From NCBI GenBank assembly GCA_902606585.1, contig CACLGX010000003.1, forward strand, positions 1 to 64,000: 64,000 bases of DNA, written 5' to 3'. This DNA is from Paracoccaceae bacterium (GTDB lineage: Bacteria > Pseudomonadota > Alphaproteobacteria > Rhodobacterales > Rhodobacteraceae). Under the pieces are notes generated by a model. It saw only the letters and a program-made list of their open reading frames with translations, searched no databases and was not told the origin of the DNA. Shown here piece by piece: positions 45,846-61,850 of this stretch (its first letter is position 1; every line of letters starts with the position of its first letter). The translations under genes were made by a program, and so were the position numbers.

Positions 45846-45935
45846 GGAGACGTGGCCGAGTGGTCGAAGGCGCTCCCCTGCTAAGGGAGTAGGCGAGGAA
45901 TCGTCTCGAGGGTTCGAATCCCTTCGTCTCCGCCA
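45846..45935 (+). tRNA. tRNA-Ser, anticodon GCU
   Basis: A 90-base type II tRNA including an encoded CCA. The acceptor GGAGACG pairs with CGTCTCC; the anticodon loop in CTCCCCTGCTAAGGGAG reads GCU; a long variable arm and a TTCGAAT T-loop are present. Its 3' end (45922-45939) recurs at 55897, marking it as an integration target. Confidence 0.95.
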
Positions 45936-46057: not shown

Positions 46058-46486
46058 TTAACTAGCCTCCTTCACAATTCTGTTATAACTGGTCTTGCTA
46101 ATACCTAATTCACGCATGATGGACGCAGGTTTTATGCCCTCTTTAAGTGCCATCAAAACCATGTCTGTTTTATTCCTAGCAGTGGGCTTTCTCCCCTTGT
46201 ATTTACCTTCAGCTTTCGCTTTGGCTATACCTTCACGCTGTCGCTCCAACATCATCTCACGCTCAAACTGTGCAACAGAGGACATGACATTTAGTATCAG
46301 CTTACCTGTGGGGTTAGATGTGTTTAGAGCAGTACCACCCATATCTAATATGACTAGTGATGCATAAGCTTTATTAACTGTCTCTACTATCTCACCTAAG
46401 TGTTTTACACTTCTAGCTAACTTTTCAAGAAGCCCTTTAGTTTGTTTCGCTTGCAGCATCGCTCCTGGCGGTGTATTATCAAACAA
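46058..46486 (-). pseudogene. Serine recombinase (resolvase/invertase), N-terminally truncated
   Basis: The C-terminal two-thirds of a Pin/Hin-type recombinase: RSVKHLGEIVETV, the NPTGKLILNVMSSVAQFEREMMLERQ core, then the HTH tail GRKPTAR...GISKTSYNRIVKEAS. The N-terminal catalytic part with its nucleophilic Ser (about 60-70 residues) is missing and replaced by unrelated codons, with only a TTG as start. It is probably inactive. Its end abuts the upstream region of the selenoprotein gene. Confidence 0.75.
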
Positions 46487-46519
46487 AACCGCATTTCATT
46501 CATTTGCAGGAGATGTGAT

Positions 46520-47755
46520 TTGACCAAGATATCAGAAATGCCCGCTGTCGCCCGGGGTTTCATTTCAAATCTCGAATTGCCAGTCATTGACGATCCCTCA
46601 TGGACGCAACCCGTGCCCGCAAATAAGCGGCGGATCTCAATTGTATCGACAGCAGCTGTTCATAGGCGCGGGGATAAGCCTTTTTCCTGGTTAGCCAAAG
46701 ATTTCCGGGCTTTTCATAAATCGGAGCGCGATCTGGTGATGACCCATGTTGCAGTGGAGTTTGACCGATCAGCCTGGCAGCAAGACCTAAACACAATCAT
46801 TCCACTTGAACGGCTTGAAGAGATGGCCGATGATGGCGAAATCGGTTCGGTTGCAGAAGAGCACTATTCCTTCATGGGGGCCGCTGATCCTGTCACCATG
46901 GAAAAATCCGCTCGCCAAGCCGCCGCGCGAATGAAGCAGGACGGTGTGGATACGGTTTTTCTGATACCTATATGACCGTTTTGTACGCGCGCCGTGTGCG
47001 GGCTGGCTCATTACTTTGAATCCGAAGGTTTATCGACCATTCTGGTTGGCTTTGTGCGCGAGCATATTGAAGCGATAAGACCGCCTCGGGCGCTGTTTCT
47101 GGATTTCCCAATGGGCCGCGGCATGGGCAAGCCAAATGATCGAGTGTTTCAGAAAAAAGTCATACGCGAGGCCTTTAGCCTGTTGGACACAGATAGCGGC
47201 CCGGTGATCAGCGATTTCCCAGAGGTCATCCTCGTGAAAGACGGACGCATGGGGTATGCGCTGCCGCCAGATCTTGTTTTGAGTGTCGAAGATATTGGTG
47301 ATGTGGACGCTGTTCTGGCTGAGGTGAAGGCTGAAATTGCTGATCTGCGACCGGATTATGAGACTGCGGTAGCCGCACGAGGACGCACCACTGTCGGGGC
47401 CAGTGGGTTAGATATTGAAGAGTTTGCGCCCTTTGTGGCTGGCTTCCTGAATGGGGAAATTCCTCAAAGCCCCAGAAAAGACATGCCGGCCATTCCATTG
47501 CTGAAGCTAGTGGTAGAGGATCTGGAAGCCTATTTCACCGAGACGCGAACGCACCGCGACAGCATTGATGATCTGGAGCTAATGGGTAAATGGTTTTGGG
47601 AAGAGAGTAAGACCGGACGGATGTTGCTTTTGCTGGAAGCCGTTTCGATCGCATCCAAAAACAAAGTGATGCTTCAGATTGTAGAAATGTCCCTTATGGC
47701 ACCTCGTTTCTGGTCGGAGGGGCCACTGCCGGGAACATCAGCAGCTGGTTGGTGA
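46520..47755 (+). CDS. Selenoprotein B-like protein of the glycine/betaine/sarcosine/D-proline reductase family, with in-frame TGA = Sec
   Basis: Read through the TGA at 46973, the frame gives one protein of about 411 residues with selenocysteine at residue 152 in DTVFLIPI-U-PFC, a redox-type UxxC motif. Family relatives (GrdB and PrdB) carry Sec at this place. Flanking family segments are IVSTAAVHRRGDKPF before the Sec, and SEGLSTILVGF and ALFLDFPMGRGMGKPNDRVFQ after it. Both sides are in one frame and neither is complete alone. The C-terminal ~130 residues are less familiar. The Grd/Prd partner subunits (pyruvoyl protein, GrdA, GrdC/D) are absent, so the reaction is unknown; a thiol-based redox reduction is inferred. 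TTG at 46520 follows AGGAG; ATG at 46538 is the other candidate start. G+C is higher than in the core genes. The machinery genes selD, selA, selB and selC follow. Confidence 0.9.
46973..46975 (+). other. UGA selenocysteine codon
   Basis: This in-frame TGA lies between codons for Ile-Pro-Ile and Pro-Phe-Cys and would be decoded as Sec by the SelB/tRNA-Sec pair encoded 2-6 kb downstream. Confidence 0.88.
46983..47003 (+). promoter_or_regulatory. Candidate bacterial SECIS hairpin
   Basis: Right after the TGA, GT-a-CGCGC can pair with GTGCG-g-GC (with one mismatch and two G-U pairs), leaving a 5-base apical loop GCCGT that starts 15 bases after the UGA. Position and size fit a coding-region SECIS. 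No fold was computed, so this is tentative. Confidence 0.45.
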
Positions 47756-47896
47756 CGCCCGCAGCAGATGGACAAATAGAGGGCAATACTGCAATAAGCA
47801 CTTATTTAAAATATCTGGCGGTTGTATTGGCAGATAATATTTTGACACATGCGTACTTTGCTTTGATTTTAGAACGCTAATAAAGGTTTACTCACA

Positions 47897-48964
47897 ATGT
47901 CCTCCATACCTTCTCTTACCAGTTTGGCGAAATCAGTAGGCTGCGCTGCTAAGATTGCGCAAGCCGATCTCGTTAAAGCACTGAACCATCTGCCCAAATC
48001 GGAGGATCCCAATTTGATAGTGGACCACGCAGGATCAGATGATGCTGCAGTTTATCGGCTTACGGCCGAACTGGCGCTTGTAGAAACAGTTGATATTTTC
48101 CCACCTATTGTCGACGATCCATTTGATTATGGACGAATCGCAGCTGCTAATGCACTTAGTGATATTTATGCAATGGGCGGAAAGCCAATCAGTGCACTCA
48201 GTTTTGTTGGCTGGCCAGTCGAAGTGTTGGGTATGGATCAACTTGGCTCAGTATTGAAGGGTGCCGCCAGCATTTGTAGTCAAGCCGGAATTGCGATTGC
48301 TGGTGGCCATTCAATTGTAGATAGTGAGCCAAAGTTTGGTCTATTCGTGACCGGCTTGTTACATCCAGAAAAAATCATTGATAATGCTGGTGCGCGAGCA
48401 GGTGATTATTTGGTTTTAACCAAAAAGATTGGAACAGGCGTATTAACGACTGCAGCCAAACGTGGATACTTGCCAACTACCGGTTTAGATGAGGCAGTCG
48501 CATCGATGACCACTCTAAATTGCGCCGCAGCATCCGTAATGTTGTCTCAAAACATAAAGGCTGCGACAGACGTTACTGGTTTCGGCCTACTTGGGCATCT
48601 TGGCAATATGCTTAAAGCATCTTCAATAGCTTCTCAAACTACACTTGGAGCAAACCTATCCTACTCTAAAATACCCCTATTCGAAGGTGTAGAGGCGCTC
48701 CTAAAGCAAGGTCTCTGTCCCGCTGGTACTCGCCGAAATCTTGAAACTGCAGCACCACTAACAGAATTTTCTGCCAGTATCAGTTCAAGCCATCAACTTC
48801 TTTTGGCTGATGCACAGACCTCCGGTGGATTACTTATGGCAGTACCCGAGGCGCATCTAGAGGCCCTAATAAGCCAACTTCAAGAGAATACGGTTGCAAA
48901 CTGCGCAGTGATTGGCCAAGTTGTACGATCAATTGAACCAGCTTCCATTAAAGTTGGATACTAG
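47897..48964 (+). CDS. selD: Selenide, water dikinase (selenophosphate synthetase)
   Basis: SelD makes selenophosphate from selenide and ATP, the selenium donor for Sec synthesis. The active segment is SVGCAAKIAQADL with Cys16 and Lys19 in the positions of E. coli Cys17 and Lys20; the second Cys of the common GCGCK is Ala here. ATP-metal marks are GSDDAAVY, ANALSDIYAMGGKPISAL and AIAGGHSIVDSEPKFG. Length 355. It lies 141 bases after the selenoprotein stop, same strand. Codon composition is less G+C rich than in selA and selB. Confidence 0.95.
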   Translation: MSSIPSLTSLAKSVGCAAKIAQADLVKALNHLPKSEDPNLIVDHAGSDDAAVYRLTAELALVETVDIFPPIVDDPFDYGRIAAANALSDIYAMGGKPISALSFVGWPVEVLGMDQLGSVLKGAASICSQAGIAIAGGHSIVDSEPKFGLFVTGLLHPEKIIDNAGARAGDYLVLTKKIGTGVLTTAAKRGYLPTTGLDEAVASMTTLNCAAASVMLSQNIKAATDVTGFGLLGHLGNMLKASSIASQTTLGANLSYSKIPLFEGVEALLKQGLCPAGTRRNLETAAPLTEFSASISSSHQLLLADAQTSGGLLMAVPEAHLEALISQLQENTVANCAVIGQVVRSIEPASIKVGY

Positions 48965-49040
48965 AAAATCCAGAACGCACACAACCTACGTCACCTTGTG
49001 CTAATTAAGCTTCACTTTTGTAATGCACAGAATAAGTATT

Positions 49041-49136
49041 TGGCGAAAGAGAGTGGGAGTCGAACCCACCAAGGACGTTGTACGCCCCTCACTAGATTTG
49101 AAGTCTAGGCGCCCCACCAGGGTGCGATCCTCTTCC
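49041..49136 (-). tRNA. selC: tRNA-Sec, anticodon UCA
   Basis: On the minus strand a 96-base tRNA with CCA: 8-bp acceptor beginning GGAAGAGG, anticodon arm CTAGA-CTTCAAA-TCTAG reading UCA, a long variable arm, and T arm GTGGG-TTCGACT-CCCAC. It aligns well with E. coli selC as recalled (GGAAGATC, GGACTTCAAATCC). Its first base directly follows the selB stop codon. Confidence 0.95.
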
Positions 49137-51077
49137 CTATCTAACATCAGATGATACCATGAAAACATCTTTCACGGAACGCCGAATATAACGGGTGTTG
49201 CCATTTCTTTCGGTGAAACCGATCTGGTCGAAATACTCTAAAACATCTATGACAAAGTTTCGGCCCAGCGTCGTTTGCTTCCGATACTCGGCAGTCGTAA
49301 AACACCGATCAGCAGAATTTGCTGCCAGCCGCTCTGCAACTACGCCAAGCTTTGCCACGAAGTGCGTTGGCGCATAGCGATTTTTACCAATCAAAACCAT
49401 TTTGCCTAATCTACTGGCCGTTTTCAGAGCCATTTCCAGGGTCTTAAGATCAACTTTCAGATCCGCCGCGGCCTGATGCAGGCTGAGCGGCGTGCCTGAC
49501 CGTGGCGCAAGTTTGGGGGCCACACGGTCGAGAAGCCGCTGGTCTCGCACGGAGATGCGGATGCTGTGCGATGGCAAATGAAAGCGGGTGCCACGGCTGT
49601 TCAATCGCTGCTCTTCGACCAGAGTACCAAGCAAAACTTCAAGGATTGAAGTCTCGATGTGGGGCGAGAGCGCCAGTTGAATGTCCTTGACGCTCGCACC
49701 AGGCGACATCGGCTTCGAGCGATGAAATCCCTTAACCGCTCCAACGACTTTGGCACCTAGCCTGTGCCATTGTGTTTCGCAGAAAACCCGTTGCTTTGAT
49801 TGTTGGCCCACCCGCCGCAAACTAAGCCTTTCAATCAGCATGTCTAACCTTGGCGCAGGAAGATTGTATGCAACTGAAAACGGAGTAAGCAGGACCCCAG
49901 TTTCGCTGCCGTCGGTCAGTGCCCTTAGGGCATCAGTGACGTTTCGATGTTGCATAGCGTTCAGCGCTGCAATCCGGGCGGGCCTTGCGCGCCCACGTTT
50001 TGGGGAAAAAGGATCAATCACGCGTCCACCAGCAATCGTGCGTTGGGCAGACTGATCGCGTAGCACAAAAGTATCGCCATGAACTGCAAAGGCATCCCGC
50101 GAAACCACCAATTGAGCCAATCCTTGCCCACCCGCAGGGATAGCACCGCCTGACAAAACTGCGACGCGGGCGGACAGATGATCAGCACCGATATGCAGAT
50201 GGGTAGGTGTCCAGTGTTTTAGTGGGCCAGTTTCGCTCGCCAGCACTTTCACCTCGACGTCGATGCGCCGTGTCGGGGCGTACAAACTGGGATGCATCAG
50301 CCAGTTCCCACGGCGAACCACCTCTTCGTTCAGGCCACGGCCGGCGATGTTGATGGCACATCTCTCTCCCGCCTTTGCACCATTACTTGCAGTATTGTGC
50401 GCCCTGATCCCGCGCACACGAACTTGGGATCCATCAGTCGAGAGTGTCATACTTTCGCCTTTACGGACGGCCCCAGAAAAGACCATTCCAGTGACAACCA
50501 AGCCAACACCTTTCAGCGTGAACACCCGATCTATGGACATACGAAAATGATGCTCGGCTGTCCAAGCAGCGCTCGCTGCCTTTACACGCGACTTCAGCGC
50601 TTTCATCAACTCCCCAATGCCTTGGTTTTCAGGCGCACAGACGGGATAGATGGTAACGCCCTCATGCCCTTCGGCAGTCAAAAGTCTATCCACTTGATCA
50701 GCAACTTCGTAAACACGGCCAGACGACACGCGATCAATCTTGGTTAGCGCGACGATATACTGGCGAATCTCCATTAGGCTCAATATGGCAAGATGCTCGC
50801 GTGTTTGCGGCATTACCCCATCGTCAGCTGCAACCACAAGCAAACCTAAATCGATACCCGCGACACCTGCAAGCATGTTGCGAATGAAATTCTCATGACC
50901 AGGGACGTCAACGAACCCCAAAATTGTATTGTCGGGCAGAGTATGGTAGGCGAAACCCAGATCCACAGACAACCCTCGGGCTTTTTCCTCCAGGAGACGG
51001 TCTGTATCAATTCCGGTCAACGCCTTTACGAGTTCGGTCTTGCCGTGGTCCACATGTCCTGATGTCGCTATGATCAT
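49137..51077 (-). CDS. selB: Selenocysteine-specific elongation factor
   Basis: SelB brings Sec-tRNA to the ribosome at UGA codons with a SECIS. The 646-residue protein has a GTPase domain with [20 protein letters not shown] (G1), [15 protein letters not shown] (G3) and TKID (G4), EF-Tu-like barrels, and C-terminal winged-helix domains (from about residue 390) that bind the SECIS. It overlaps selA by 4 bases (ATGA), and its TAG is followed at once by tRNA-Sec. High G+C for this genome. Confidence 0.97.
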
Positions 51078-52537
51078 GACATCTCCAGATCTTGTAGGTT
51101 TCGGACAAACGCCTCCTCGTCTTCAAGACATCTGAGATCAAACCAAAGCGCATCATCGGAAATGCGTCCAATCACTGGAACTGGCAATTTTCGAAAAGCC
51201 TTGGCAAGCCTGTTCAACGCAGAACCGGGGCGGCGCACATCCGGCCGCGTTATCTTGAGAGCAGCGCTTTGCAATTTATCGATTGGCAGGGCCCCGCTGC
51301 CCACCTGGCTGTGGGTTTGCGAGACCGCAACTTCAAATTTTTTGCAACAGTCTTGAAGGACCGAGGCCAAGCGGCCAGCTAATTGTTCGATTTCTACAGG
51401 GTTGCGCGTCAAAAGACGCAATGTCGGCAGCTCATCCGTCAGGCGCTCGGGGTTGGTGTATAACCTCAGAACAGCTTGCAGGGCTGCTAGGGTGATTTTG
51501 TCTGGCCGCATGGCCCGGGTCATGGGGTTACGTTTGAGTTTGTCGATAAGATCGCGGCGGCCCGCAATAATGCCCGCCTGCGGCCCACCTAGCAGCTTGT
51601 CACCACTAAATGTCACCAGATCCGCCCCTGACGCCAAAGCTTCTGTGACAGTAGTTTCGTGCGGGAGATTGTAGGGCTCTAGGTCAATCAAAGTGCCGCT
51701 TCCCAAATCTGTGATAAAGGGTAGATTGTAACGATGCGCGATCCCCGCAAGGTCCTTGTCCGAGACGCTTTTGGTAAAGCCTTTTATCTCAAAGTTGCTT
51801 GTATGGACCTTCATTAGCAATGCGGTTTTAGGACCGATCACAGCGTCGAAATCTGCTCTATGAGTGCGGTTGGTCGTCCCAACTTCCACCAACTTGCATC
51901 CTGCACGTGCCATGATGTCCGGCATGCGGAAGGCTCCACCGATCTCGATCAGTTCGCCACGTGAAACAGGCACCTCCTTGCGTTGGGCCAGGCTGTTGAG
52001 CGTCAGCAACACGGCTGCTGCATTGTTGTTTACAACAAGCGCGCCTTCTGCCCCAGTTAACTGGCACAGCAGAGCTTCGGCATGCCTATGCCGATCACCG
52101 CGTTTACCCGTTTCCAAATCAAATTCCACGTTACTTGCGCCGCGCGAAACATCCACCATCGACTGTATCGCGGATTGAGGCAGGGGTGCGCGGCCAAGAT
52201 TGGTGTGCAGCACAGTGCCCGTCAGATTGTAAACTGGACGAAGTGAGGGGAGCAAAATATGCTCAATCTCTTCGGACAGCGATTGGATCAGCGTAGCCAT
52301 ATCTGTAGACTCACCAGCCAGAACCCTAAGTCGCGCCCGCGCCAAGATACTCTGCGCACAGCGTGTGACCAAGGCCAGGCCATGATCACACGCGAAATTC
52401 TGCACAGTTGGCGTGTTCAAAAGGCGATCCACCGAAGGCAAATATTGTGGCGACTCTATGCGTGTCATCTCTACTCCTTGTAGCAGGCACTGTGAGAATA
52501 ACCCAGCTTCCCTGACATTGAAATGGGGCTTAGCCAT
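51074..52537 (-). CDS. selA: L-seryl-tRNA(Sec) selenium transferase
   Basis: This PLP enzyme turns seryl-tRNA-Sec into selenocysteinyl-tRNA-Sec with selenophosphate. PLP-site marks are the Lys in [34 protein letters not shown] and [15 protein letters not shown]. Length 487, normal. Likely operon selA-selB-selC. An upstream region of 277 bases should carry its promoter. Confidence 0.96.
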
Positions 52538-52814
52538 TCAGCTATGTCCTATCCTATATCATTCCGCGATTTCAAAACCAGTCCCGAGATCATCCAACTT
52601 TCAGTTATGCTTCATATAAGGTCTCCACACGCTGCTGATGACTAAGTTCGCGGGACTGCAAGCACCGCCATTATCTTTATTTTTATTCTATTAAATCAAT
52701 GGGGTATGGGTTTTTTCTATTATCTGTCCCCTTATCTGTCCCCTATAAAAGCTTTAAATACGGCCTCGCGCGCGCGTAGCACTGTCACTGGGCCTTTATT
52801 TAACCAGCAATAAA
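52538..52814. other. Intergenic region upstream of selA
   Basis: No gene is evident in these 277 bases. Positions ~52,730-52,745 carry the direct repeat TTATCTGTCCCC twice in a row, and ~52,765 has a short run of alternating CG. The selA promoter probably lies here; no clear -35/-10 pair was chosen. Confidence 0.4.
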
Positions 52815-53180
52815 TTACGTACGTAGAGATATTTGTTTGTTTTCGATAAGGTTTTTATGGGTTTTCTCTAAACGTGAAGAATTAGATTTAGACAGTCCAG
52901 ATTTTTCACAACTCTTTTTGGGATCAATTCCATCTCGTCTGAGTTCAATGTATTGTGCAACCTTTAAAGAAAATTTTTTACCACCTTTGCTGGCTTGCAT
53001 AAATTCTCTTGAACTTGTTAGGTAAGCAGACCTTTGACTTATGCCTCTATCTATTTTTTCTTTTGCCGAGGCTATTAAATTTCTTGTTTCAGTTAAATTA
53101 AGACCCCATCGTTGGCATTTTGCGATGTAACCGTCAGAGCAATCAAAATAGCGATCCAGACCAGCATAAGTTTTGAACAT
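52815..53180 (-). CDS. Hypothetical protein with a C-terminal HTH-like part
   Basis: A 121-residue basic protein not recognised. The C-terminus FSLKVAQYIELRRDGIDPKKSCEKSGLSKSNSSRLEK looks like a resolvase-type helix-turn-helix. It lies on the island near mobile remnants, so it may itself be a fragment. Confidence 0.45.
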   Translation of the reverse strand: MFKTYAGLDRYFDCSDGYIAKCQRWGLNLTETRNLIASAKEKIDRGISQRSAYLTSSREFMQASKGGKKFSLKVAQYIELRRDGIDPKKSCEKSGLSKSNSSRLEKTHKNLIENKQISLRT

Positions 53181-53282
53181 ATGTCCTTGATAATGAATCG
53201 GATCTAGTTTTGTGAAGCTTTAATTTATTGCAATTTGGTGAAACCTGCATAAATTTTATAAAATTATCATATCACAAATGTT

Positions 53283-53442
53283 TATGGCTTATAAGGATGT
53301 CTCAAAAACTAACACGGATAGACGGTAATAATAGCCATAAACGTCACAAATTTTGATACTGTAAGAACTTTATAATTCATAATTTTGAGCAAACGTCACA
53401 AGTTTTAATACGGGACCATATTAAGATTTGCGACGGGGTTTT
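53283..53442 (+). repeat. Direct repeat, copy A
   Basis: About 160 bases resembling 55716-55875 in the same direction. Shared blocks include TATGGCTTATAAGG, AACGTCACA, TTTATAATTCA, AATTTTGAG and GCGACGGGGTTTT. The repeat ends within the last codons of a winged-helix-like gene fragment. Confidence 0.75.
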
Positions 53443-53739
53443 GTTTTTACAGGAGAGATAACGGGATAATCATTTCCTTGCGTCCAGCTAGCGTAAAGAT
53501 GTCTGCCGCCTCTAGATCCTGGCAATGGTAACTTAGTAATCTCATACAATTGTAATTTTGCTTTGCCCTCGACTCCGAGCCGGCTTGATTTGGTAACGAA
53601 AAAAAATCCCTTGGCTTGGAGCTTTCTAAAGGCAGATGCTGCTGTGTTTACAGATACACCCATTTTCTGATCCGCTTGCTTGCATAATAAAGCTATTATA
53701 GAAATGATATTTTGCCAATATATTAGCTTTAATTTCCTA
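53421..53739 (-). pseudogene. Truncated winged-helix-like protein, 3' part only
   Basis: The frame holds SVNTAASAFRKLQAKGFFFV and LQLYEITKLPLPG, resembling regulators or replication proteins of mobile elements. The upstream part of the open frame is only a shifted reading of the mechanosensitive-channel gene, so the real gene has lost its N-terminus. It ends ...KPRRKS. The same 3' end occurs in repeat copy B (KPRRKT). Confidence 0.5.
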
Positions 53740-55440
53740 CTATGGGCCCTGAAAAAATTTGATAATTGAATTTTTGATAGCCTGCAAAATGCCTTTTTGT
53801 CCATCACCGGTATCTCCAGCATTTCCTATAGCGTTTTTAATTGCTGCAAGTTCTTGCTGTCGGGACGCCAGAATTTGAGATAAAGACTCTACAACAGCAT
53901 CATTTTTTTTCAGAATCTCAGAAAAAATTGCCTTGTTGATCTCGAACAATACTGTGGGGCGCTTTGCCGTAACTGTTGCGGCCCGCCTTGCACCAGTTAA
54001 TAGAGACATCTCACCAAAAACCTCGCCTATTGTCAGATTTCCAACAACAGCTTCATCGCTATCATCATTTTCTACGCTCACTTGAACCACTCCTTCGACA
54101 ATCAAAAACATAGATGGCCCTCGGGCGCCTTGTTCAATAATGACCTCACCTGCCCTGAAATGGCGTTTTGTGGCTGCGGAAGAAAGCAAAGCACATTCGT
54201 TGTCATCCAATGCTTCAAATAAATCTACCCTACGGAACCAATATTCGGCTTTTTGGGACTCTAGGTAAATGTTATGCTCAGGTGCATAAAGTTTGTCGTA
54301 AGTTTGTTCATCTTGGCTGTAATCTTGAATTGCCGACAAACTGGCATCTGGTTTGATTGTTTGGAAAATGTGGCCAAGGGACATCGTTACCCCAGCTTTA
54401 GTAAGCACATAATTTATTGACATCATAATTGATGATCTTTGACTAAATAGTAACGCACGGTCCAAGCAATCGTATGCTATCCAAAACTCTAATCCACCGT
54501 CTTTCGCGCCCCCAAACCAAACATCTGTGTATCCAAAAAAGGAGCGCTTGTCGGCTGGAACAGCCTTGGCCAAAGCGTCTTTTAAAAGAGCCATAATGTT
54601 TTCAGGGTTGTGGCGCGGATGAACGACTATTGAGTCATAAGTGATAAATCCACCGCTGGCGAAATTTGGATCATTCTTTGCAAGATTAATGACAGTGGCT
54701 TGTGCTAATTTATCGTTTGGGATCACTATTTCCATGTTGTCAATGGAGACCAGCTTAGTAGTTCTCCATGAAATGTTTTTGACTTGTCCTAACTGGCCAT
54801 CGACAGTGATCCAATCATTTTGTTGAAAGGGTTTTTCCAGATTTAAAAAAATTCCTGACACCACGTTACTTAGATTGCCTTGCAGTGCCAATCCGATAAT
54901 TGCAGTGATCAAACCAGATGTGGCCAAAGCGGCCGTCAATGGTACTTGATAACCTTGAGACAAAAATATCAAGCAAGGAGTGGTAAGCAGAATGGTAATA
55001 ACCAAGAACCTCAAAATACTTGGAAAGTTCCGTTCGTTCGGGTCACGAGATTGAGAGTTATCAATATTTTCGAAGGTAAGAATCAACAGTATGAAAGGTT
55101 GAAAGACCTTGTATGCGAGATTTGGGTTAAATTTATCGTCTAAAAAACTTAAGGTAGTTGCTAAAATAAAATTCTGGTTACTAAGGTCTGTAGGAAATAT
55201 CGCTACGGCATAAAGGTAAGTTGAAAAAATCAAGCAAACAAAAGAAAAATTCCTCGCTTTGCTATTCTTATGAGAGATTTTGACTGTGAAGGCCATGGAC
55301 AGGGCAAGGATAGAGTAATTTGCGATCAATGTTGCCGTTCCAAAACCTGATGCTCCGGCATATGGCACGATTAAAATTGCCAGAAAGATCAGGCACCCTT
55401 TCAAAATCGGATAAAGATTCATTGAGGCTTTAGACGCCAT
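53740..55440 (-). CDS. MscS-type mechanosensitive channel with C-terminal cyclic-nucleotide-binding domain
   Basis: A 566-residue membrane protein. N-terminal membrane helices are followed by the MscS core: LALQGNLSNVVSGIFLNLEKPF (pore region) and DWITVDGQLGQVKNISWRTTKLVS. A C-terminal cNMP-binding domain (residues ~415-530) has GEVIIEQGARGPSMFLIVEGVVQV and GEVFGEMSLLTGARRAATV with the phosphate-binding cassette. Likely gated by tension and tuned by a cyclic nucleotide. It stands between direct repeats A and B, so it may have been moved or copied as a unit. Confidence 0.88.
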   Translation of the reverse strand: MASKASMNLYPILKGCLIFLAILIVPYAGASGFGTATLIANYSILALSMAFTVKISHKNSKARNFSFVCLIFSTYLYAVAIFPTDLSNQNFILATTLSFLDDKFNPNLAYKVFQPFILLILTFENIDNSQSRDPNERNFPSILRFLVITILLTTPCLIFLSQGYQVPLTAALATSGLITAIIGLALQGNLSNVVSGIFLNLEKPFQQNDWITVDGQLGQVKNISWRTTKLVSIDNMEIVIPNDKLAQATVINLAKNDPNFASGGFITYDSIVVHPRHNPENIMALLKDALAKAVPADKRSFFGYTDVWFGGAKDGGLEFWIAYDCLDRALLFSQRSSIMMSINYVLTKAGVTMSLGHIFQTIKPDASLSAIQDYSQDEQTYDKLYAPEHNIYLESQKAEYWFRRVDLFEALDDNECALLSSAATKRHFRAGEVIIEQGARGPSMFLIVEGVVQVSVENDDSDEAVVGNLTIGEVFGEMSLLTGARRAATVTAKRPTVLFEINKAIFSEILKKNDAVVESLSQILASRQQELAAIKNAIGNAGDTGDGQKGILQAIKNSIIKFFQGP

Positions 55441-55445
55441 GATTT

Positions 55446-55535
55446 TTACCTTTGAATTTTTGTACGCCTTATTTTACCTTCAAAACCTGATGTAAAACAA
55501 TCATATCCTTTTTGAACTACTTCTTTTGGTGTCAT
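55446..55535 (-). pseudogene. Truncated N-terminal fragment, possibly SnoaL/NTF2-like
   Basis: A 29-codon frame (MTPKEVVQKGYDCFTSGF...) with a GGAGAG site that looks like the first ~18 residues of a SnoaL-like protein fused to unrelated codons. It ends 5 bases before the channel gene, so the channel may be translated by coupling from this leader. Confidence 0.4.
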
Positions 55536-55715
55536 TCTTCTCTCCGATTAATTTTAAACAGAAGCCTAATCTGTAGTTATAACGAACTTGCGATAGTGTA
55601 GGAACTGTACCTCAACATCATAAAGTCTTGCCACTTTCGATTGTAGAACTGAGAATTACTTTTTAGACGAAATCTTTGAAGCAATTAGAAAAGTAAATAG
55701 TTTTAAGTAAGGTTA
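55536..55715. other. Intergenic stretch before repeat B
   Basis: About 180 A/T-rich bases. Nothing coding is seen; a promoter for the leader fragment and channel gene is expected here. Confidence 0.3.
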
Positions 55716-55875
55716 TATGGCTTATAAGGCTGTCTCGAAAACTAATACGAATTGAGCGTGAAAATAGCTACAAACGTCACACACTTTGATACGGATAAAG
55801 TTTTATAATTCACAATTTTGAGTAAACGTTACAATTTTTAATACAGGATTGTATTAAGTTTTGCGACGGGGTTTT
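55716..55875 (+). repeat. Direct repeat, copy B
   Basis: The second copy of the ~160-base repeat at 53283. On the minus strand its end encodes the same tail (KPRRKT stop) as the winged-helix fragment, followed by att site 2. Confidence 0.75.
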
Positions 55876-55896
55876 ATTAGAAATAAGAATGGCAGA

Positions 55897-55914
55897 CTTC
55901 GTCTCCGCCATTCA
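55897..55914 (+). repeat. attR-like site: copy of tRNA-Ser 3' end
   Basis: Identical to the 18 bases at 45922-45939, but without a tRNA in front of it. It should be the far boundary of the 10-kb island. Confidence 0.85.
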
Positions 55915-55960
55915 GTATTTATTTTCATAAAATCAATAACTTGAGGTGGGAGAAAATAGT

Positions 55961-56032
55961 TGATGTAACCAGTTTGTACCCAGTTTAAGGCAGGATTTTA
56001 GAGTGTATTCAAATAAGCAACTTGCTTTCGTT
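55961..56032 (-). pseudogene. Second copy of the box that follows the att site
   Basis: Resembles 45986-46052: CCAGTTTGTACCCAGTTT, then GGATTTTAG and TTCAAATAA, with small gaps. Both copies sit shortly after an att copy, as expected for tandem related elements. Confidence 0.45.
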
Positions 56033-56106
56033 AATATTGGTGAGTCTATTGATAATGATAAACATACAAATATTGTCATTCCAAACCCCAAAACTATTTA
56101 TCACAT

Positions 56107-56298
56107 ATGGTTAGACGAACTTATGAATCTGATGCTGCCAAGATAGAAGATGTTAATGATATTGAGGATCTTGTAGCTGATAAGCGTGAAGCTTGGAGAG
56201 CAACTTCTGATAACGCAAGACGCAGACAGCGTAGGTATAAAAAGCGTTTAACTAATAGGCTTGTGAGACAAGATTACTTTGAGGATGAAATAGAGTAA
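56107..56298 (+). CDS. Small highly charged hypothetical protein
   Basis: A 63-residue protein (MVRRTYESDAAKIEDVNDIE..., rich in Arg, Asp, Glu) not recognised. A second tiny gene follows. Small charged proteins like this are common on phage-like elements; no specific role can be given. Confidence 0.5.
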   Translation: MVRRTYESDAAKIEDVNDIEDLVADKREAWRATSDNARRRQRRYKKRLTNRLVRQDYFEDEIE

Positions 56299-56383
56299 GT
56301 TTTAGCATTAAATGTCTTGAAACTATAAGACTGCGGCACCATTTTTAGCTTATAAGATTTGCTTACATTTTCGGAAACCGCAC

Positions 56384-56515
56384 ATGAGAATGATGACGTT
56401 GGAAGGACTACGTCACAAGCGTTACGTAGTCTATGATGATAAAGGTAAAGTTGTTATAATAACACGTCAGAAAAACGTGGCCAGATATTTTTTCCAAACA
56501 GGAGATAAACCTTAG
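56384..56515 (+). CDS. Small hypothetical protein, 43 residues
   Basis: Starts MRMMTLEGLRHKRYVVYDD, continues as beta-strand-like sequence (GKVVIITRQKNVARYFF) and ends GDKP. Unrecognised, but its sequence looks like a genuine small phage or plasmid protein. Confidence 0.4.
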   Translation: MRMMTLEGLRHKRYVVYDDKGKVVIITRQKNVARYFFQTGDKP

Positions 56516-56530
56516 TTACTGCTGTTTCAT

Positions 56531-56606
56531 CTACCTAACCTGTTCATTCTTCAGCCAGTGCTTAACCACCTCAACAGCCAAGCATTTCTCACAGAGGTTA
56601 TTACGG
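56531..56606 (-). pseudogene. CxxC mini-gene, copy 1 (5' truncated)
   Basis: Encodes NNLCEKCLAVEVVKHWLKNEQVR after the join with the end of the monooxygenase-like gene. It matches copies at 56992 and 61084 but lacks the first CxxC and start codon. Confidence 0.6.
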
Positions 56607-56897
56607 ATGTTGGTACCTGATCGTTCCAGAGTATGCTTTGCAGACGTTCTCTTCATCAAAACGCTCACATAAATGTTCTATAAGCTCAATCATATTGTGA
56701 GGACCATTCACATAGTTCATAAAATCATCCATAGAAGCCCACTCATTCACAACAATCAATTGATCTTCATGTGTATGTACAATATTGAAACTGTCCAGCC
56801 CGTCAACACCGTCTTTTCTACTCTCAACAATTAAGTCCGTAATTTCATCCGCTGCTCCTTCTTTAGGGGTAACGGCTATTACACTCATCATTTTCAT
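56601..56897 (-). CDS. Antibiotic biosynthesis monooxygenase (ABM)-like protein
   Basis: A 98-residue ferredoxin-like single-domain protein: MKMMSVIAVTPKEGAADEITDLI, then LIVVNEWASMDDFMNYVNG. Such proteins form dimers and act on quinols or unknown small molecules. Start ATG at 56897 has GGAG nine bases upstream. Confidence 0.7.
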   Translation of the reverse strand: MKMMSVIAVTPKEGAADEITDLIVESRKDGVDGLDSFNIVHTHEDQLIVVNEWASMDDFMNYVNGPHNMIELIEHLCERFDEENVCKAYSGTIRYQHP

Positions 56898-56991
56898 AGA
56901 TACATTCTCCAACTGAACGGCCTATTACTATCTTTTTTTTATATTTACCAGTAGACCTCTGCTTCTTTTACTTCACCTCGTCACTCTTCAG

Positions 56992-57102
56992 TCAGTGCTT
57001 CACCACCTCAACAGCCAAGCACTTCTCACAGAGGTTATTACTTATGTCTTTAGCTTCAAAGAGTTTCTTGCAAGAGGAGCATGTGTTTGTTTGTTCATCC
57101 AT
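56992..57102 (-). CDS. CxxC mini-gene, copy 2 (36 residues)
   Basis: MDEQTNTCSSCKKLFEAKD then NNLCEKCLAVEVVKH: two CxxC pairs make a likely zinc knuckle. The stop TGA stands where copies 1 and 3 have TGG (Trp), and the downstream frame LKSDEVK resembles theirs, so this copy is probably shortened by one mutation. Its start overlaps the racemase stop by 8 bases. Confidence 0.55.
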   Translation of the reverse strand: MDEQTNTCSSCKKLFEAKDISNNLCEKCLAVEVVKH

Positions 57103-57766
57103 TAACAAATTCAAACAACTCCTGTACGTGAATTTTTGCACAATCAATTAAATTAAAGTTAACATTCTCTGAATTGTAAACTAACGCAAGATCAGTACCT
57201 CCTAACATGACAGCATCAGCATTGTGTTTATTAATAAATTGGTTACATGCTGCTTCAAAAACTTGACGCTGCTCATCATTTACAGAACCCAAAGTTGCCA
57301 TATCCACATAGGCTTTGTGTACTTTATCAAGCAGTTTACCTTCTGGTATAACCACTTCCGCAGTGGATATGGATGAGTAAAACTTGGATTCCATAACAGG
57401 TTTAGTGCCAAGTATTCCAATTTTAGTGTGACCGTTGTTTTTAATCTCTTTTTGGACACATAAAAGCATGTCAACAACTGGAAGAGTGGACTTTGCTTTA
57501 AAGTCCGAAATGCAAAAATGACCAGCGATGGAGGTTACTGCAACACAATCTGCTCCTGCGTCTTTTAATCGTTCAGTTAATACTTCATAAATTGCAACTT
57601 GTGCATCTGTGTCATTGTTCATCAAGTTATTTACAAGTGTAGGTGCATCTGCATGAACAATGGTAATCTCTAGTTTAACATATTCCGATGCAAATTTTTG
57701 GATTAGGTTCCTGTAATAAAAGTCAGTTGCTGCAGGACCAATCCCACCAATCAAACCAATCTGCAT
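57095..57766 (-). CDS. Aspartate/glutamate racemase-family protein lacking catalytic cysteines
   Basis: A 223-residue protein starting MQIGLIGGIGPAATDFYYRNL, as in PLP-independent Asp/Glu racemases. Yet the usual first catalytic Cys motif reads VTSIAGHF and the second, normally LGCT, reads MLGGTDLAL. Both catalytic cysteines appear to be missing, so racemase activity is doubtful; a changed reaction or binding role is possible. Confidence 0.75.
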   Translation of the reverse strand: MQIGLIGGIGPAATDFYYRNLIQKFASEYVKLEITIVHADAPTLVNNLMNNDTDAQVAIYEVLTERLKDAGADCVAVTSIAGHFCISDFKAKSTLPVVDMLLCVQKEIKNNGHTKIGILGTKPVMESKFYSSISTAEVVIPEGKLLDKVHKAYVDMATLGSVNDEQRQVFEAACNQFINKHNADAVMLGGTDLALVYNSENVNFNLIDCAKIHVQELFEFVNG

Positions 57767-57821
57767 AAATGTTACTCCATTGTAAAGAAAAGTTCAAATT
57801 CTATCCCACGGGTTGACCTGC

Positions 57822-58056
57822 TCATCCACCAACCATTCTAAAAGGTTTTTTGGGCTTTGTCTCTCTAAGCTTTTTTAAGATTCTGTTGTACTTCCTTCGA
57901 TCTATATTCAAGTCATAAATAATCTGTAAATCTGTCTTGCCTTCCTCCAGCTTCCTCAACTAAAGCTCTCATAGCAGGTTCTCTGTTCTGTTTTTTTTCG
58001 ATGATGCTCATATTGGCTTCCATTGTGTAACTATTAAATATCATTCGAACAGTCAT
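57822..58056 (-). pseudogene. Frameshifted small helical (HTH-like) protein
   Basis: ATG at 58056 opens MTVRMIFNSYTMEANMSII... and REPAMRALVEEA. One frame over, it continues LRKLEEGKTDLQIIYDLNID and RRKYNRILKKLRETKPKKPF. The two halves suit one protein joined at a frameshift near 57,960. Family unknown. Confidence 0.4.
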
Positions 58057-58057
58057 T

Positions 58058-58330
58058 TTATGTCTCCCTTAATTGTTGCAATTTGAAACTATCAGGAAAT
58101 TGTAACAAAGATAATAACATCGGTCTGGCGTTTGGCCATTTCACTGGAATTTTTAATTTTTGCTTATTTAATAGGCAGCTTCCAAAGACTTGAAGACTTT
58201 CTTCTATCTCAGTCAGCTCAAGAGTCCGTCTGTAGCTATCGATAAGCCCCATGGCACCTGTTCCTCAATCGCGGAGTAAGTTCGCCTTCACTGACGGCTG
58301 TGAGAACGTTGCTAGCGGCTTTAGAGGTAT
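58058..58330 (-). pseudogene. Remnant of a mobile-element hypothetical protein
   Basis: Frames on the minus strand give KAASNVLTAVSEGELTP and then, one frame shifted, LIDSYRRTLELTEIEESL. Together they recall the C-terminus of phage-island proteins (GELTP...SYRRTLE...E). A stop and a shift lie between, so it is broken. Family link is from recall only. Confidence 0.4.
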
Positions 58331-58410
58331 CCTGGGTTAATTTTTTCTCAATTTCGTGTATGCTCTTTCATATATTTTCGTAACTTTTCGATTCTCAATC
58401 GGTATTTCGT

Positions 58411-59295
58411 TTGATTTTATTTCTATCAGTTCTAGAAGTTTGTGCGCCTGTGTTTATCGTGGCTGGTATTGGTTTTTTTTGGATGAAGTTTGGATACGAA
58501 TATAGAATAGAATTTGTTACTCAACTTGTCATGAGCCTAACCATCCCGTGTCTTATATTTAACGCTCTTATACAAACTCAAATTGATTTTGAAATATTAA
58601 AAACTTTGCTCTACGCTACTCTAATTGTTCTAGCTATGATAGTCGTAGCGACATATTTAATTGTTGTGATTTTGGGCTTGAACCGTCAGACATTTCTCGC
58701 GCCAATGATTTTTGGAAATAGCGCCAATATTGGTATTCCCATCTGTTTACTAGCTTTTGGGCAAACTGGCTTTGAATTGGCAATATTCATATTTTCAATA
58801 ATGGCGATTTTTAGCATGACGTTTGGCGTTTGGCTGATTACCGACAGGGAATCTCCTGTCAGGTTGATTAAAGAACCTTTGGTAATAGCAGTACTACTGG
58901 GTGCGTTATTTCTATTAACTGGCTGGAAGCTGCCAGTTTTTTTTACAAATACTCTTCAATTGGTGGGCCAAACGTCTATTCCACTCATGTTGCTTACGCT
59001 TGGAGTAACGATTGCTAAATTACAAATCACAGCGATTTCAAAACTAATATTGCCCTCAATTTTGAAATTTATTGTTTGCCTGCTTTGTGGTGTCTTAGGG
59101 ATTTATATTTTTAAATTAGATGACGTAGCCGCTGCCGCATTGCTATTGCAAGTTACGATGCCGGTTGCAGTTTCTTCTTATATGCTCGCGGAAAAGTATA
59201 GCTCTGAGGCTCAAGAAGTTGCCGCCTTCGTTGTGGTTTCGACATTATTCGCGCTGATCTACATACCGTTTACTTTGGCATTTCTTTTAGCTTAA
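58411..59295 (+). CDS. AEC family (auxin efflux carrier-type) transporter
   Basis: A ~294-residue inner-membrane carrier with about ten helices. Marks are GFFWMKFGYE at the start, NALIQTQIDF, FGNSANIGIPICLLAFG (family N-x-G-P/I region) and the SIPLMLLTLGVTIAKLQ repeat half. Starts with TTG. Ligand unknown, commonly organic acids. Confidence 0.85.
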   Translation: MILFLSVLEVCAPVFIVAGIGFFWMKFGYEYRIEFVTQLVMSLTIPCLIFNALIQTQIDFEILKTLLYATLIVLAMIVVATYLIVVILGLNRQTFLAPMIFGNSANIGIPICLLAFGQTGFELAIFIFSIMAIFSMTFGVWLITDRESPVRLIKEPLVIAVLLGALFLLTGWKLPVFFTNTLQLVGQTSIPLMLLTLGVTIAKLQITAISKLILPSILKFIVCLLCGVLGIYIFKLDDVAAAALLLQVTMPVAVSSYMLAEKYSSEAQEVAAFVVVSTLFALIYIPFTLAFLLA

Positions 59296-59447
59296 TTTTG
59301 CAAGAGATTATAAAAGGCCTTAAACATCATTTTGAACTCGTTGATTTAATTAACTGGATTCTAAAACTTTGCTACTTTACTCAGCATTTTTTAAAGCTTC
59401 TTTCCAATTGAAGCCCACATTAGCTCCCACAATTTTAGGCTTTAAGC

Positions 59448-59555
59448 TCAATATTTGCCGACAAATGTGCCATTAGGCCAATAAGTCTCATACAGCTTCT
59501 TTCTGGGCTTAATGTTCTTTTCTAGCTTACTTAAACGTACTTTGAAGCTGCGCAT
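59448..59555 (-). CDS. Small basic hypothetical protein, 35 residues
   Basis: MRSFKVRLSKLEKNIKPRKKLYETYWP...: Lys-rich, follows the next upstream gene (59561) by five bases. Unrecognised; plausibility rests on spacing and amino-acid pattern. Confidence 0.4.
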   Translation of the reverse strand: MRSFKVRLSKLEKNIKPRKKLYETYWPNGTFVGKY

Positions 59556-59560
59556 TGAGG

Positions 59561-59824
59561 CTATTCGGTCATTACTTCCATACCGTAAACGGTATATTCG
59601 CAACCATTATCTTTATCCCACTGTAATTCTTCTGGGTTGCTCATAAACGCTCCCATTGCTGCCATGTCAGTAACATCCATACAAGCCATGAACTCTTTTT
59701 CACCTAATTCTGCAAAGCGCCATTCTGTTACAAATTCACCAGCCCCTGCTGCCATATCAGCTTTAACCTTTGCATGGAGAACATGCGCTCCTGTTTCTAT
59801 AGTTCCTCGAATAAATACGTTCAC
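59561..59824 (-). CDS. Small ABM-like / ferredoxin-fold hypothetical protein
   Basis: An 87-residue protein (MNVFIRGTIETGAHVLHAKV..., FMACMDVTDMAAMGAFMSNPE) with the alternating strand-helix pattern of dimeric alpha-beta barrel proteins. GGAGATAA precedes its ATG. Function unknown. One of several like genes between 56.6 and 61.9 kb. Confidence 0.6.
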   Translation of the reverse strand: MNVFIRGTIETGAHVLHAKVKADMAAGAGEFVTEWRFAELGEKEFMACMDVTDMAAMGAFMSNPEELQWDKDNGCEYTVYGMEVMTE

Positions 59825-59878
59825 TAGTTTATCTCCTTTGATTTTCTAATACTTGCTTTGAACCTAAGACTCTATGCG

Positions 59879-59968
59879 TTAATAACCATAAAAATCTTGA
59901 TCTGCTATACCCTTACATAATTGATAAGTTTCAGCTTTTGTCAGTTCTGCTCTGCTATCCTTTTTCAT
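59879..59968 (-). CDS. Very small hypothetical protein, 29 residues
   Basis: MKKDSRAELTKAETYQLCKG...DQDFYGY, encoded between two small genes. Low certainty; no ribosome site was singled out. Confidence 0.25.
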   Translation of the reverse strand: MKKDSRAELTKAETYQLCKGIADQDFYGY

Positions 59969-59995
59969 TTTAATGTTTTAAATACAGATGGCGCT

Positions 59996-60289
59996 TTAGG
60001 CTTCAGACATAATAGAAAGAATTGGTCCCATAGTTTCTTCCACCAACGAATGGCCAGTTTCCTCAATTGTTTGTTTACGCATTTCTTGTCGCCTTGCATT
60101 CTCTTCCTGCGCATCTGTTTTAGAAGAATAAATGATAACCGACTGGTGAGTGTTTTCGTCAATTTTAAACCAAATAATGTCTTCAGCTTTGGTGTTTGAT
60201 CTGTGCCCTCGGTGCCATTCTTTCATCGTTTCTGCGCTTGGAACACCATTTGGCCACGACCACTTTGTGTGAACTGCGTACTTTGCCAT
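59996..60289 (-). CDS. Small hypothetical protein (possible ferredoxin-like fold)
   Basis: A 97-residue protein: MAKYAVHTKWSWPNGVPSAETM, DIIWFKIDENTHQSVIIYSS, then a long helix. AAAGGAGA before ATG at 60289 decides this start; the open frame goes 20 codons further up. Not recognised. Confidence 0.6.
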   Translation of the reverse strand: MAKYAVHTKWSWPNGVPSAETMKEWHRGHRSNTKAEDIIWFKIDENTHQSVIIYSSKTDAQEENARRQEMRKQTIEETGHSLVEETMGPILSIMSEA

Positions 60290-60413
60290 TACGCTATCTC
60301 CTTTGTAGTATTCAAACAAATAGAACCACACAAGAGGCTTTTCTGACAACTTTAAAAAGGTCGACGTTAGGTCAATTGAAAAAGTCGCGGAAGACTTAGA
60401 ATAACCTAAATAC

Positions 60414-60713
60414 CTAGCTCTCTTTTAGAACAAAAGATGTTCTCGCTCTGGTGTGACCTTCTTCTTCACTGTACTCGATCAGGTACTTTCTAATTGTATC
60501 CAAAAATGAAAGAGCCTCATCTTGGTTTTCTATCAAGGTATCCATTCCATCTAGTATGATTGAGAACATTAACTCATCATCGTCTTGAACTAAGTATACC
60601 TTTGCATCAGCACCCCTAGTTGCCCATATATCAACACGATCTTTCAACTTATCGGTTATGAGATCAAAGTGCTCAGGTATTGGCTTCATTCGTATAGTCG
60701 ATATTGTTTTCAT
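60414..60713 (-). CDS. Small hypothetical protein, ABM-like pattern
   Basis: A 99-residue protein, MKTISTIRMKPIPEHFDLITDKLK then KVYLVQDDDELMFSIILDGMDTLIENQDEA, showing strand-helix-strand-strand order. It lies 2 bases after the preceding gene fragment and is likely in one unit with it. Function unknown. Confidence 0.55.
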   Translation of the reverse strand: MKTISTIRMKPIPEHFDLITDKLKDRVDIWATRGADAKVYLVQDDDELMFSIILDGMDTLIENQDEALSFLDTIRKYLIEYSEEEGHTRARTSFVLKES

Positions 60714-60715
60714 AT

Positions 60716-61051
60716 TTAACCTGACTTTTCTGCCTTTCTTTCAGCTTCAAAAAATTGCCTATCTTTTTCGGTGTATTCGGCAATAATCGCTGCCTTTGGG
60801 TCTCGGAAAAAATAGTGTAGATCACCTTCATAATAAAAGGTATTTTTCACGAATATATTAAAAGTATCATTAAACTTCTGCCTGCCGACTAGGTTTTTCT
60901 CAGCTTCCTCAAAACTCTCATATATTGCTAAGGACATCATAGATAGTGGACCAGTTTTGACATTGATAGCTGCCTGAGCGCTTGGAAAATATTCTTTTTG
61001 CGTGGAAAGGTATAGCGTAAAAGCGGCTTTGATGGCTTCATCACTTGTCCA
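60716..61051 (-). pseudogene. 5'-broken paralogue of the 61407 protein
   Basis: The homologous reading begins just after a TAG at 61052: SDEAIKAAFTLYLSTQKEYFPSAQ then SLAIYESFEEAEKNLVGRQKFND and NTFYYEGDL. This parallels DNLVARQEWFD and DTFYYEGEI of the intact 61407 protein. The first ATG (60940) lies inside the domain, so the protein lacks its first strand or is dead. Confidence 0.55.
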
Positions 61052-61083
61052 CTAACCATCGTTATTCTGCCAACGCTCATAGT

Positions 61084-61224
61084 CTAAAACCCTTTTATCT
61101 TATCATTCTTCAGCCAGTGCTTAACAACCTCCGCAGCCAAACACTTCTCACATAGGCTATTACTTATGTCTTTAGCTTCAATGGGTTTCTTGCATGAGGA
61201 GCATGATCTTGGAATTTTTTTCAT
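61084..61224 (-). CDS. CxxC mini-gene, copy 3 (46 residues, intact)
   Basis: MKKIPRSCSSCKKPIEAKDISNSLCEKC... to KHWLKNDKIKGF. The two CxxC pairs suggest a small zinc-binding protein. It is the most complete of three copies. Confidence 0.6.
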   Translation of the reverse strand: MKKIPRSCSSCKKPIEAKDISNSLCEKCLAAEVVKHWLKNDKIKGF

Positions 61225-61406
61225 TTAAGTCATCTTTTTGGATTTCTCTTATAAGACGTTACTTAACCTTTTCTAGAGTTCCAAATAGTTTTCACCTTTA
61301 TATTTTAGCGCATTGAATTGAGTACCAATCGCATGAAATTAGTTTCAGTTTCTGAATTTACATCGGATTGATTTTTAGAAAGGATAAACCAATGGAGGAA
61401 TAAATT

Positions 61407-61850
61407 ATGATCGCAAGAATAATTATGAGTGAGCATCCCGATGAAAAAGACTTAAAGCTTTTTACAGCTGATCACAAAGAAGCTGTTAAAGATGGATTTC
61501 TTGCCAACACTAAATTTAGCATTTCTGTTCAAACTAGTCCCACTTCATTACTGGTTGTTTCAGGATATGAAAATCAAGAGTCGGCGGACTCGAATCTTGT
61601 GGCACGTCAAGAATGGTTTGATAAAAGAAAAGGTAAATACATAGATACATTTTATTACGAAGGCGAAATTAAAACCATGTTGAAAGGTGGTGGAAAGTAC
61701 CTTCTTGATAAAAATGTTGAATTGGATTCAAACTTGAGAGACTCCAAAAAAGACTTGATAAAAGATGAAGTGCGGGACTTACGAAAAGAAGTAAATGACC
61801 TGAAAGAAATGATCAAATTACTGATTGAAATAAACGAGAGGAAGAAGTGA
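61407..61850 (+). CDS. Hypothetical ABM-like protein with C-terminal coiled coil
   Basis: 147 residues. The first ~100 form a ferredoxin-like domain (MIARIIMSEHPDEKDLKLF..., LVARQEWFDKRKGKYIDTFYYEGE); residues 115-147 form a heptad-rich helix (DEVRDLRKEVNDLKEMIKLLIEINE). GGAGGA precedes the ATG. It overlaps a tiny ORF downstream. Function unknown. Confidence 0.65.
   Translation: MIARIIMSEHPDEKDLKLFTADHKEAVKDGFLANTKFSISVQTSPTSLLVVSGYENQESADSNLVARQEWFDKRKGKYIDTFYYEGEIKTMLKGGGKYLLDKNVELDSNLRDSKKDLIKDEVRDLRKEVNDLKEMIKLLIEINERKK

Follow-up and report, generated by a model that had tools for sequence, protein, structure and literature searches.

A predicted PrdB-like selenoprotein and its adjacent selenocysteine genes form a probably mobile cassette in a Paracoccaceae bacterium

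The stretch of DNA analyzed here (the window; contig CACLGX010000003.1 of a Paracoccaceae bacterium, positions 1 to 64,000, 64,000 nucleotides) contains a gene for a PrdB-like protein with an in-frame TGA. With moderate confidence, we read it as one gene whose TGA is decoded as selenocysteine (Sec) with the help of the sel genes next to it and whose product is likely a thiol-driven PrdB/GrdB-type reductase that works on its own. Judged from sequence comparison, the block that holds these genes is probably a mobile selenocysteine kit carrying its own user protein.

One reading frame through an in-frame TGA

The gene and its signals are placed as follows:

46520..47755, plus strand: PrdB-like selenoprotein gene, long form; TTG start, 411 residues, predicted Sec at residue 152
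46508..46512, plus strand: candidate ribosome binding site AGGAG before the TTG start, read from the sequence
46973..46975, plus strand: in-frame TGA, predicted Sec codon (UPFC); TGA in all 17 close relatives

Without recoding, the ORF listing gives two plus-strand ORFs, 46442–46975 and 46994–47755. Translation of 46520–47755 with TGA as Sec yields a protein of 411 residues with U152 in the sequence IUPFCTRAV, the UPFC motif at residues 152–155, and a final TGA at 47753–47755. The initial annotation had proposed that the two ORFs are a single selenoprotein frame, and conservation bears this out. Eighteen loci were recovered by scanning named genomes, and 17 of them are close, with 77–99% identity in the best segment. 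All 17 have TGA as codon 152, none has another stop before codon 412, and frame length is constant, the frame of L040 leaving its contig at codon 401. Each of the 17 has TTG, GTG, or ATG at the matching start position, and most have, by eye, a GGA or GGAG box ahead of it. The eighteenth locus (L049, 38% identical) carries TGA at the matching position, as do all 52 sequences of a larger set that was picked for having TGA. A cysteine codon at this site, which the initial annotation had suggested looking for in related strains, occurs in three distant relatives (L077, L078, and L081). One further distant homologue (L062:7890-9113) has a TAG at codon 281 in addition to the Sec TGA, which may reflect either decay or an error of sequencing.

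In a sample of 394 genomes from the window's family, the gene was found in seven (E ≤ 1e-40), all with one internal TGA: the window's own genome, five at 67–84% identity, and one at 39%. No match to the gene came from the only other listed genome of the window's genus in this sample (96% complete).

Both halves of the gene are under purifying selection, with pN/pS of 0.07–0.17 before the TGA and 0.12–0.22 after it (17 comparisons, window as reference); hence, neither half looks decayed. If the TGA were a true stop, leaving two separate genes or a decaying pseudogene, two ORFs would be listed without recoding, as they are. We rejected this explanation, which we consider extremely improbable, because TGA, frame, and length are kept in 17 of 17 relatives and pN/pS stays within 0.07–0.22 on both sides. 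The adjoining sel genes also speak against it, as does the cysteine codon of the three distant relatives; no SelB scores over the cut-off in the genomes of these three. No homologue ending at the TGA and no decayed frame, the two observations that the initial annotation had named as damaging to its claim, was seen among the 17 relatives. The frames on either side of TGA 46973 are one gene of 411 codons, and their continuity is beyond chance.

The expectation that standard annotation would yield fragments was also supported. A protein database search, which excluded proteins shorter than 0.55 times the query, returned 349 relatives at E ≤ 0.001. The 120 matches listed are 226–253 residues long, most of them 253 (the length of the second ORF), cover 55–61% of the query at 68–93% identity, and are called hypothetical protein where a product name is given. 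Since their length is approximately that of the second half, the gene appears usually to be called in pieces; given the length floor, pieces of the first half could not appear in this search.

A predicted SECIS-like hairpin behind the TGA

46983..47007, plus strand: predicted SECIS-like hairpin with a conserved CGUGN loop; pair count and frozen synonymous sites

Among 17 sequences (the window and 16 relatives), 230 degenerate codons encode an invariant residue. Only 10 of these are invariant as codons too, and six of the 10 are codons 156–161, directly after the TGA. In an alignment of 52 sequences (44 distinct), a nine-pair hairpin falls at +11 to +35, with the first TGA base as +1. Four of its nine pairs have changed on both sides, compared with 0–2 in control versions slid by one to three columns, and 81.1% of its cells are paired versus 17.7–56.1% in the slid versions. 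The number of pairs changed on both sides was reached by 10 of 500 shuffles and the pairing percentage by one of 500. The count of further pair types does not stand out, since 282 of 500 shuffles reached it. Most rows (29 and 28 of 44) fail to form two of the nine consensus pairs, and the stability of the window's hairpin by itself is not above that of shuffles (z −0.87). A covariance model of the hairpin matched the selenoprotein gene in all nine genomes searched and only one other place in them (E 0.92; 150 candidates scored per genome). On these computations, a SECIS hairpin is predicted.

Selenocysteine genes beside the selenoprotein gene

Genes for Sec synthesis and decoding, which had escaped the initial annotation along with the extra C-terminal domain, the signs of mobility, and the 2005 and 2008 ocean surveys discussed below, all lie within 4.8 kb downstream of the gene (47897–52537):

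47897..48964, plus strand: selD, selenophosphate synthase; Pfam AIRS and AIRS_C
49041..49136, minus strand: tRNA-Sec (selC), anticodon TCA; Rfam RF01852 71.7 bits, ARAGORN
49137..51077, minus strand: selB, Sec-specific elongation factor; TIGR00475 405 bits (over cut-off), Pfam SelB domains
51074..52537, minus strand: selA, L-seryl-tRNA(Sec) selenium transferase; Pfam SelA 522 bits

The name SelD rests on position and on the free-standing copies in seven related cassettes, six of which are 72–99% identical, the seventh (L045) being in two pieces of 58 and 66%. tRNA-Sec and selB are near the gene in 16 of the 17 close loci and selA in 14, the rest ending with the contig. For selD, the count near the gene is seven free-standing (with L045 as two frames), five fused, and five not seen, one of the last being cut off by the contig. 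The fused form occurs in the Roseovarius-type cassettes (L033, L034, L035, L036, and L048), where SelD stands behind a Pyr_redox_2 domain (checked in L048 and L036) in a protein of 733–740 residues encoded on the minus strand, about 1.3–3.5 kb after the start of the selenoprotein gene. SelD of the window's cassette is free-standing, with 355 residues, which suggests that the kit exchanges its selD.

The association extends to more distant genomes. Sel genes or tRNA-Sec were found at 14 of 37 distant loci. Long homologues occur in 33 of 385 genomes of the class, 30 with TGA and three with Cys; SelB scores over its cut-off in 28 of the 30 TGA-form genomes versus none of the three Cys-form genomes. 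In G338, one of the two exceptions, a partial SelB scoring 219 bits lies at the edge of a contig. Another 26 of the 385 genomes have SelB and no TGA-form gene, and 17 further ones gave weaker matches only.

Formate dehydrogenase was considered as a Sec user and rejected for the nine genomes carrying the gene, because no listed Fdh-alpha match in them has an internal stop.

Two other genes recur in these blocks. The first encodes GcvH (glycine cleavage H protein) and is part of the sel block in Roseovarius-type and SAR116 genomes (L048:15020-15439, minus strand; L034, L035, and L033; L038:1780-2142 and L044:3605-3967, both plus strand); it is broken in L042 and L047 and absent from the window's sel block, and among the genomes searched, G385, G387, G388, G390, and G392 have another copy at a different place. 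A LysR-type regulator is found beyond selA in nine of the 17 close loci (L033–L036, L038, L042, L044, L047, and L048); none was matched in the window.

The cassette as a probable mobile unit

46428..52711, no strand assigned: cassette as a unit; the only stretch common to the window and sister locus L032, 98.8% identical
46058..46486, minus strand: serine recombinase (resolvase) remnant; Pfam Resolvase, profile positions 72–145 of 145 only
45846..45935, plus strand: tRNA-Ser(GCT) beside the cassette; ARAGORN

The limits of the unit come from a blastn comparison of the window with 17 kb of L032, in which pieces longer than 80 bp were counted. The L032 genome is a near sister, with a ProRS 97% identical to the window's, and carries the cassette at a different place. 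The composition of the 6.3-kb block is foreign, at 52% G+C versus about 40% around it (0.517 for 46500–52540 versus 0.403 for 1–45800 and 0.378 for 53000–64000). The gene's distribution is patchy, and in four of the six other family carriers from the 394-genome sample, tRNA-Sec lies within roughly 4 kb around it. The shift in G+C, the other site in the sister genome, and the presence in seven of 394 genomes point to a mobile kit with its own user protein.

Traces of integration lie at the left end, where the resolvase remnant overlaps the cassette and lacks the start of its domain. The tRNA-Ser(GCT) gene, about 500 bp from the left end, is a possible integration landmark. On the L032 fragment there is also a phage-type integrase and, by eye, a tRNA 3′ end just right of the cassette. 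No direct or inverted repeat of at least 10 bp was found between the window stretches compared, and L032 gave one direct and one inverted 10-bp match.

Sequence identity between the window and Roseovarius aestuarii (L048) is 95% for the selenoprotein and 80% for ProRS. Within the R. aestuarii cassette, SelB is only 74% identical to the window's, and such uneven identity along the cassette suggests that the block has recombined internally. An 83% identical copy of the gene occurs in a gammaproteobacterial bin (L040), where contamination is possible. Both the window (57095-57766, minus strand) and L037 (1075-1749, minus strand) have an Asp/Glu/hydantoin racemase-like gene in the vicinity of the cassette, at differing distances and sides.

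A PrdB-like domain, an extra domain, and no partner subunit found

47237..47752, plus strand: C-terminal helical domain, residues 240–411; AlphaFold models, no Pfam family

The proposed kinship with selenoprotein B of the Grd/Prd type was upheld. Pfam GRDB (PF07355) scores 32.4 bits against a cut-off of 22, with residues 17–148 matching profile positions 205–344 of 347, that is, its end; the first half of the GRDB profile is missing from the protein, and no GrdE-type partner was found, which sets it apart from GrdB, GrdF, and GrdH. TIGR01917 (selenoprotein B) gave 27.1 bits versus an equivalog cut-off of 602.2, and the TIGR01918 cut-off was missed as well. The best-scoring family is NCBIfam PrdB (TIGR04483), at 100.7 bits and under its curated cut-off of 300.

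The similarity to PrdB and GRDB spans the first ∼222 residues. This part has a Rossmann-like fold in the AlphaFold model, with Sec152 at a helix start; pLDDT is 87.8 for the whole protein and 84.6 for the C-terminal domain alone. The latter, of ∼170 residues, gave no Pfam match and no convincing match in the PDB, and solved relatives that convince were found for neither domain.

A true D-proline reductase subunit PrdB, working with a PrdA that went unrecognised, has to be weighed at this point. The alignment covers positions 2–218 of the 238 in the PrdB profile, and identity to Terrisporobacter PrdB (WP_083399465.1, L122) is 28–29%, with the UxxC Sec and Cys in matching positions and active-site residues in common. 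Shared by seven of seven sequences, true PrdB included, are H76, D82, D89, N91, P95, position 152 (Sec or Cys), C155, E167, R190, G199, and Q211, among others. Against this, the score is far below the curated cut-off, the motif is UPFC versus UGTC in PrdB, and the C-terminal domain is absent from the PrdB proteins compared. No protein of the PrdA/GrdE family (PF09338) was found in the nine genomes carrying the gene, as the initial annotation had claimed for the window; both Clostridia control records matched, one annotated with prdA and the other an unannotated fetched stretch. Partner genes may have gone unseen in the window's genome, which is 73% complete. A heme-copper oxidase is present in eight of the nine genomes, including the window's, which agrees with the earlier impression of an aerobic host. 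We consider proline reductase quite improbable, and the label itself was rejected on the TIGR04483 score and the lack of a PF09338 protein in the nine genomes. The product is likely a stand-alone, selenium-based reductase of PrdB/GrdB type in oxygen-using bacteria; the host of the window is probably a marine bacterium.

Genomic neighbors and candidate reactions

A gene of GST fold lies directly upstream of the selenoprotein gene, on the same strand and at 27–119 bp, in six of the 54 loci. The six represent three genome families (L039 and L041; L059, L066, and L071; L075), and the window's locus is not one of them. This link, the one clue to the reductant that recurs, was noticed after the fact. 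Pfam support for the proteins of L039 and L041 as GST is weak, and two others of the six also match Glutaredoxin. The GST model was built from seven proteins (L034, L039, L059, L066, L071, L078, and L083), which match it by construction and include four of the six upstream genes; seven other hits were found by the model. Eight further model hits lie farther from the gene. Counting non-overlapping ORFs understates such neighbors: the GST gene L075:668-1534 was missed in that count and found among all ORFs.

The neighbors of distant homologues are otherwise diverse, with no Pfam family in more than six of 107; an ATC hydrolase, a CoA-transferase, and a 2-hydroxyacid dehydrogenase lie near one of them. 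Such diversity points to no single substrate.

Discussion

For the favored reading, a reductase acting on a small molecule, the following scheme may be drawn. The Sec152 selenolate would attack an electrophilic center of the substrate, in a C–N, C–S, C–halogen, or similar bond; PrdB and GrdB make such an attack on an electrophilic center with the help of a partner. Cys155 would then attack the selenium, release the reduced product, and leave an Se–S bond, which a cellular thiol might reduce, be it glutathione, a GST-fold or glutaredoxin-like partner, or thioredoxin. The C-terminal domain may close or shape the active site and so take the place of the absent partner subunit. The attack by Sec152, the resolution by Cys155, and the regeneration by a thiol are modeled on PrdB and GrdB chemistry, in part as given in PMC13188914. 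Thiol-linked reduction by the window's protein is plausible. Peroxide, which had been suggested as a substrate, received no support in this analysis.

The same UxxC redox motif could belong to an enzyme without a catabolic substrate, one that repairs or reduces proteins or glutathione adducts by thiol–disulfide exchange or deglutathionylation. The GST-fold neighbors, two with glutaredoxin similarity, fit such a role, and the catabolic neighbors are too varied for one substrate. The residues outside UxxC that are common with PrdB (H76, D82, D89, N91, R190, and Q211) argue the other way, since they suggest a small-molecule pocket, and a thioredoxin fold is absent among the listed structural matches, which is not proof. 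We regard this role as rather unlikely, though deserving of weight.

A further candidate role is to break down or detoxify halogenated compounds, or other organic electrophiles, by reductive cleavage. A haloalkane dehalogenase (441 bits versus a curated cut-off of 241) lies near the distant homologue at L055, genes of the same cluster occur close to L057 and, at a greater distance, in L077 and L078, and GSTs, CoA-transferases, and dehydrogenases lie near other distant homologues. This cluster is seen at four of the 37 distant loci, however, and none of it adjoins the window's gene, so we see little chance that the window's protein has this function.

Partial precedents exist for the gene and its setting. 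Surveys of marine metagenomes counted 42 Sec-type "proline reductase PrdB" genes in the Sargasso Sea in 2005 (PMC1088965) and 235 Sec and 110 Cys genes in the GOS data in 2008 (PMC2398784). The encoded proteins resemble the window's in UxxC motif, PrdB homology, predominance of Sec, and marine origin, and they likely belong to the same subfamily; the family itself is therefore probably known already. Unlike here, the accessible parts of these papers file them as proline reductase and make no mention of an extra domain, a missing partner, or a cassette. No function of marine PrdB-like proteins was reported in the literature searched, which left most subscription journals outside its coverage. 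Three elements are new as far as that literature shows: the added domain of the long form, the lack of a partner, and the gene's role as passenger of a mobile sel cassette.

Transfer of Sec machinery with a gene that uses it has been described for selA-selB-selC plus fdhA clusters of Pseudomonadales (PMC1794560). According to the accessible text of that 2006 study, transferred sel clusters are mostly accompanied by fdhA and otherwise by selD, and fdhA was the sole selenoprotein of the Sec decoders that it covered among Alpha- and Betaproteobacteria and Pseudomonadales; the passenger in the window is PrdB-like, not formate dehydrogenase or SelD. A parallel case is the 21.7-kb Terrisporobacter plasmid pTPHSE2 (NZ_CP154621.1, L122), a small replicon on which prdB (with one TGA) is kept together with prdA, selD, and selA. 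It differs in belonging to Clostridia, in having PrdA and a short PrdB, and in being typed as non-mobilizable. A short alphaproteobacterial relative from Roseomonas (WP_207415257.1, annotated "glycine/sarcosine/betaine reductase selenoprotein B family protein") has the PrdB-like domain and 29% identity to residues 1–240 of the window's protein, and neither PrdA nor GrdE is named among the eight other annotated features around its gene; unlike the window's protein, it has 302 residues, no long helical domain, and Cys (TGC) in place of Sec.

Tentatively, and with less confidence than for the gene itself, we propose that the ocean "PrdB" selenoproteins are not proline reductases and include a separate class of stand-alone, glutathione-linked selenoreductases with a fused partner domain in oxygen-using bacteria. 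One branch of this class would travel as a self-sufficient 6-kb kit, installing Sec in bacteria without it for the sake of a protein that is not formate dehydrogenase. The 6.3-kb block, decoding machinery and user protein together, likely moves as one unit between marine bacteria. Selenocysteine is costly and sensitive to oxygen, and a kit in which all of the machinery accompanies a single enzyme suggests that the enzyme repays this cost. Because the compact unit is present in a cultured strain, Roseovarius aestuarii KCTC 22174, the reason for keeping Sec becomes testable. A correction of labels may follow for an abundant class of ocean selenoproteins, now filed under a reaction whose partner is lacking in the genomes examined. 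Measured against the accessible text of the 2006 study, the PrdB-like gene would be a third kind of passenger of transferred sel clusters, besides fdhA and selD.
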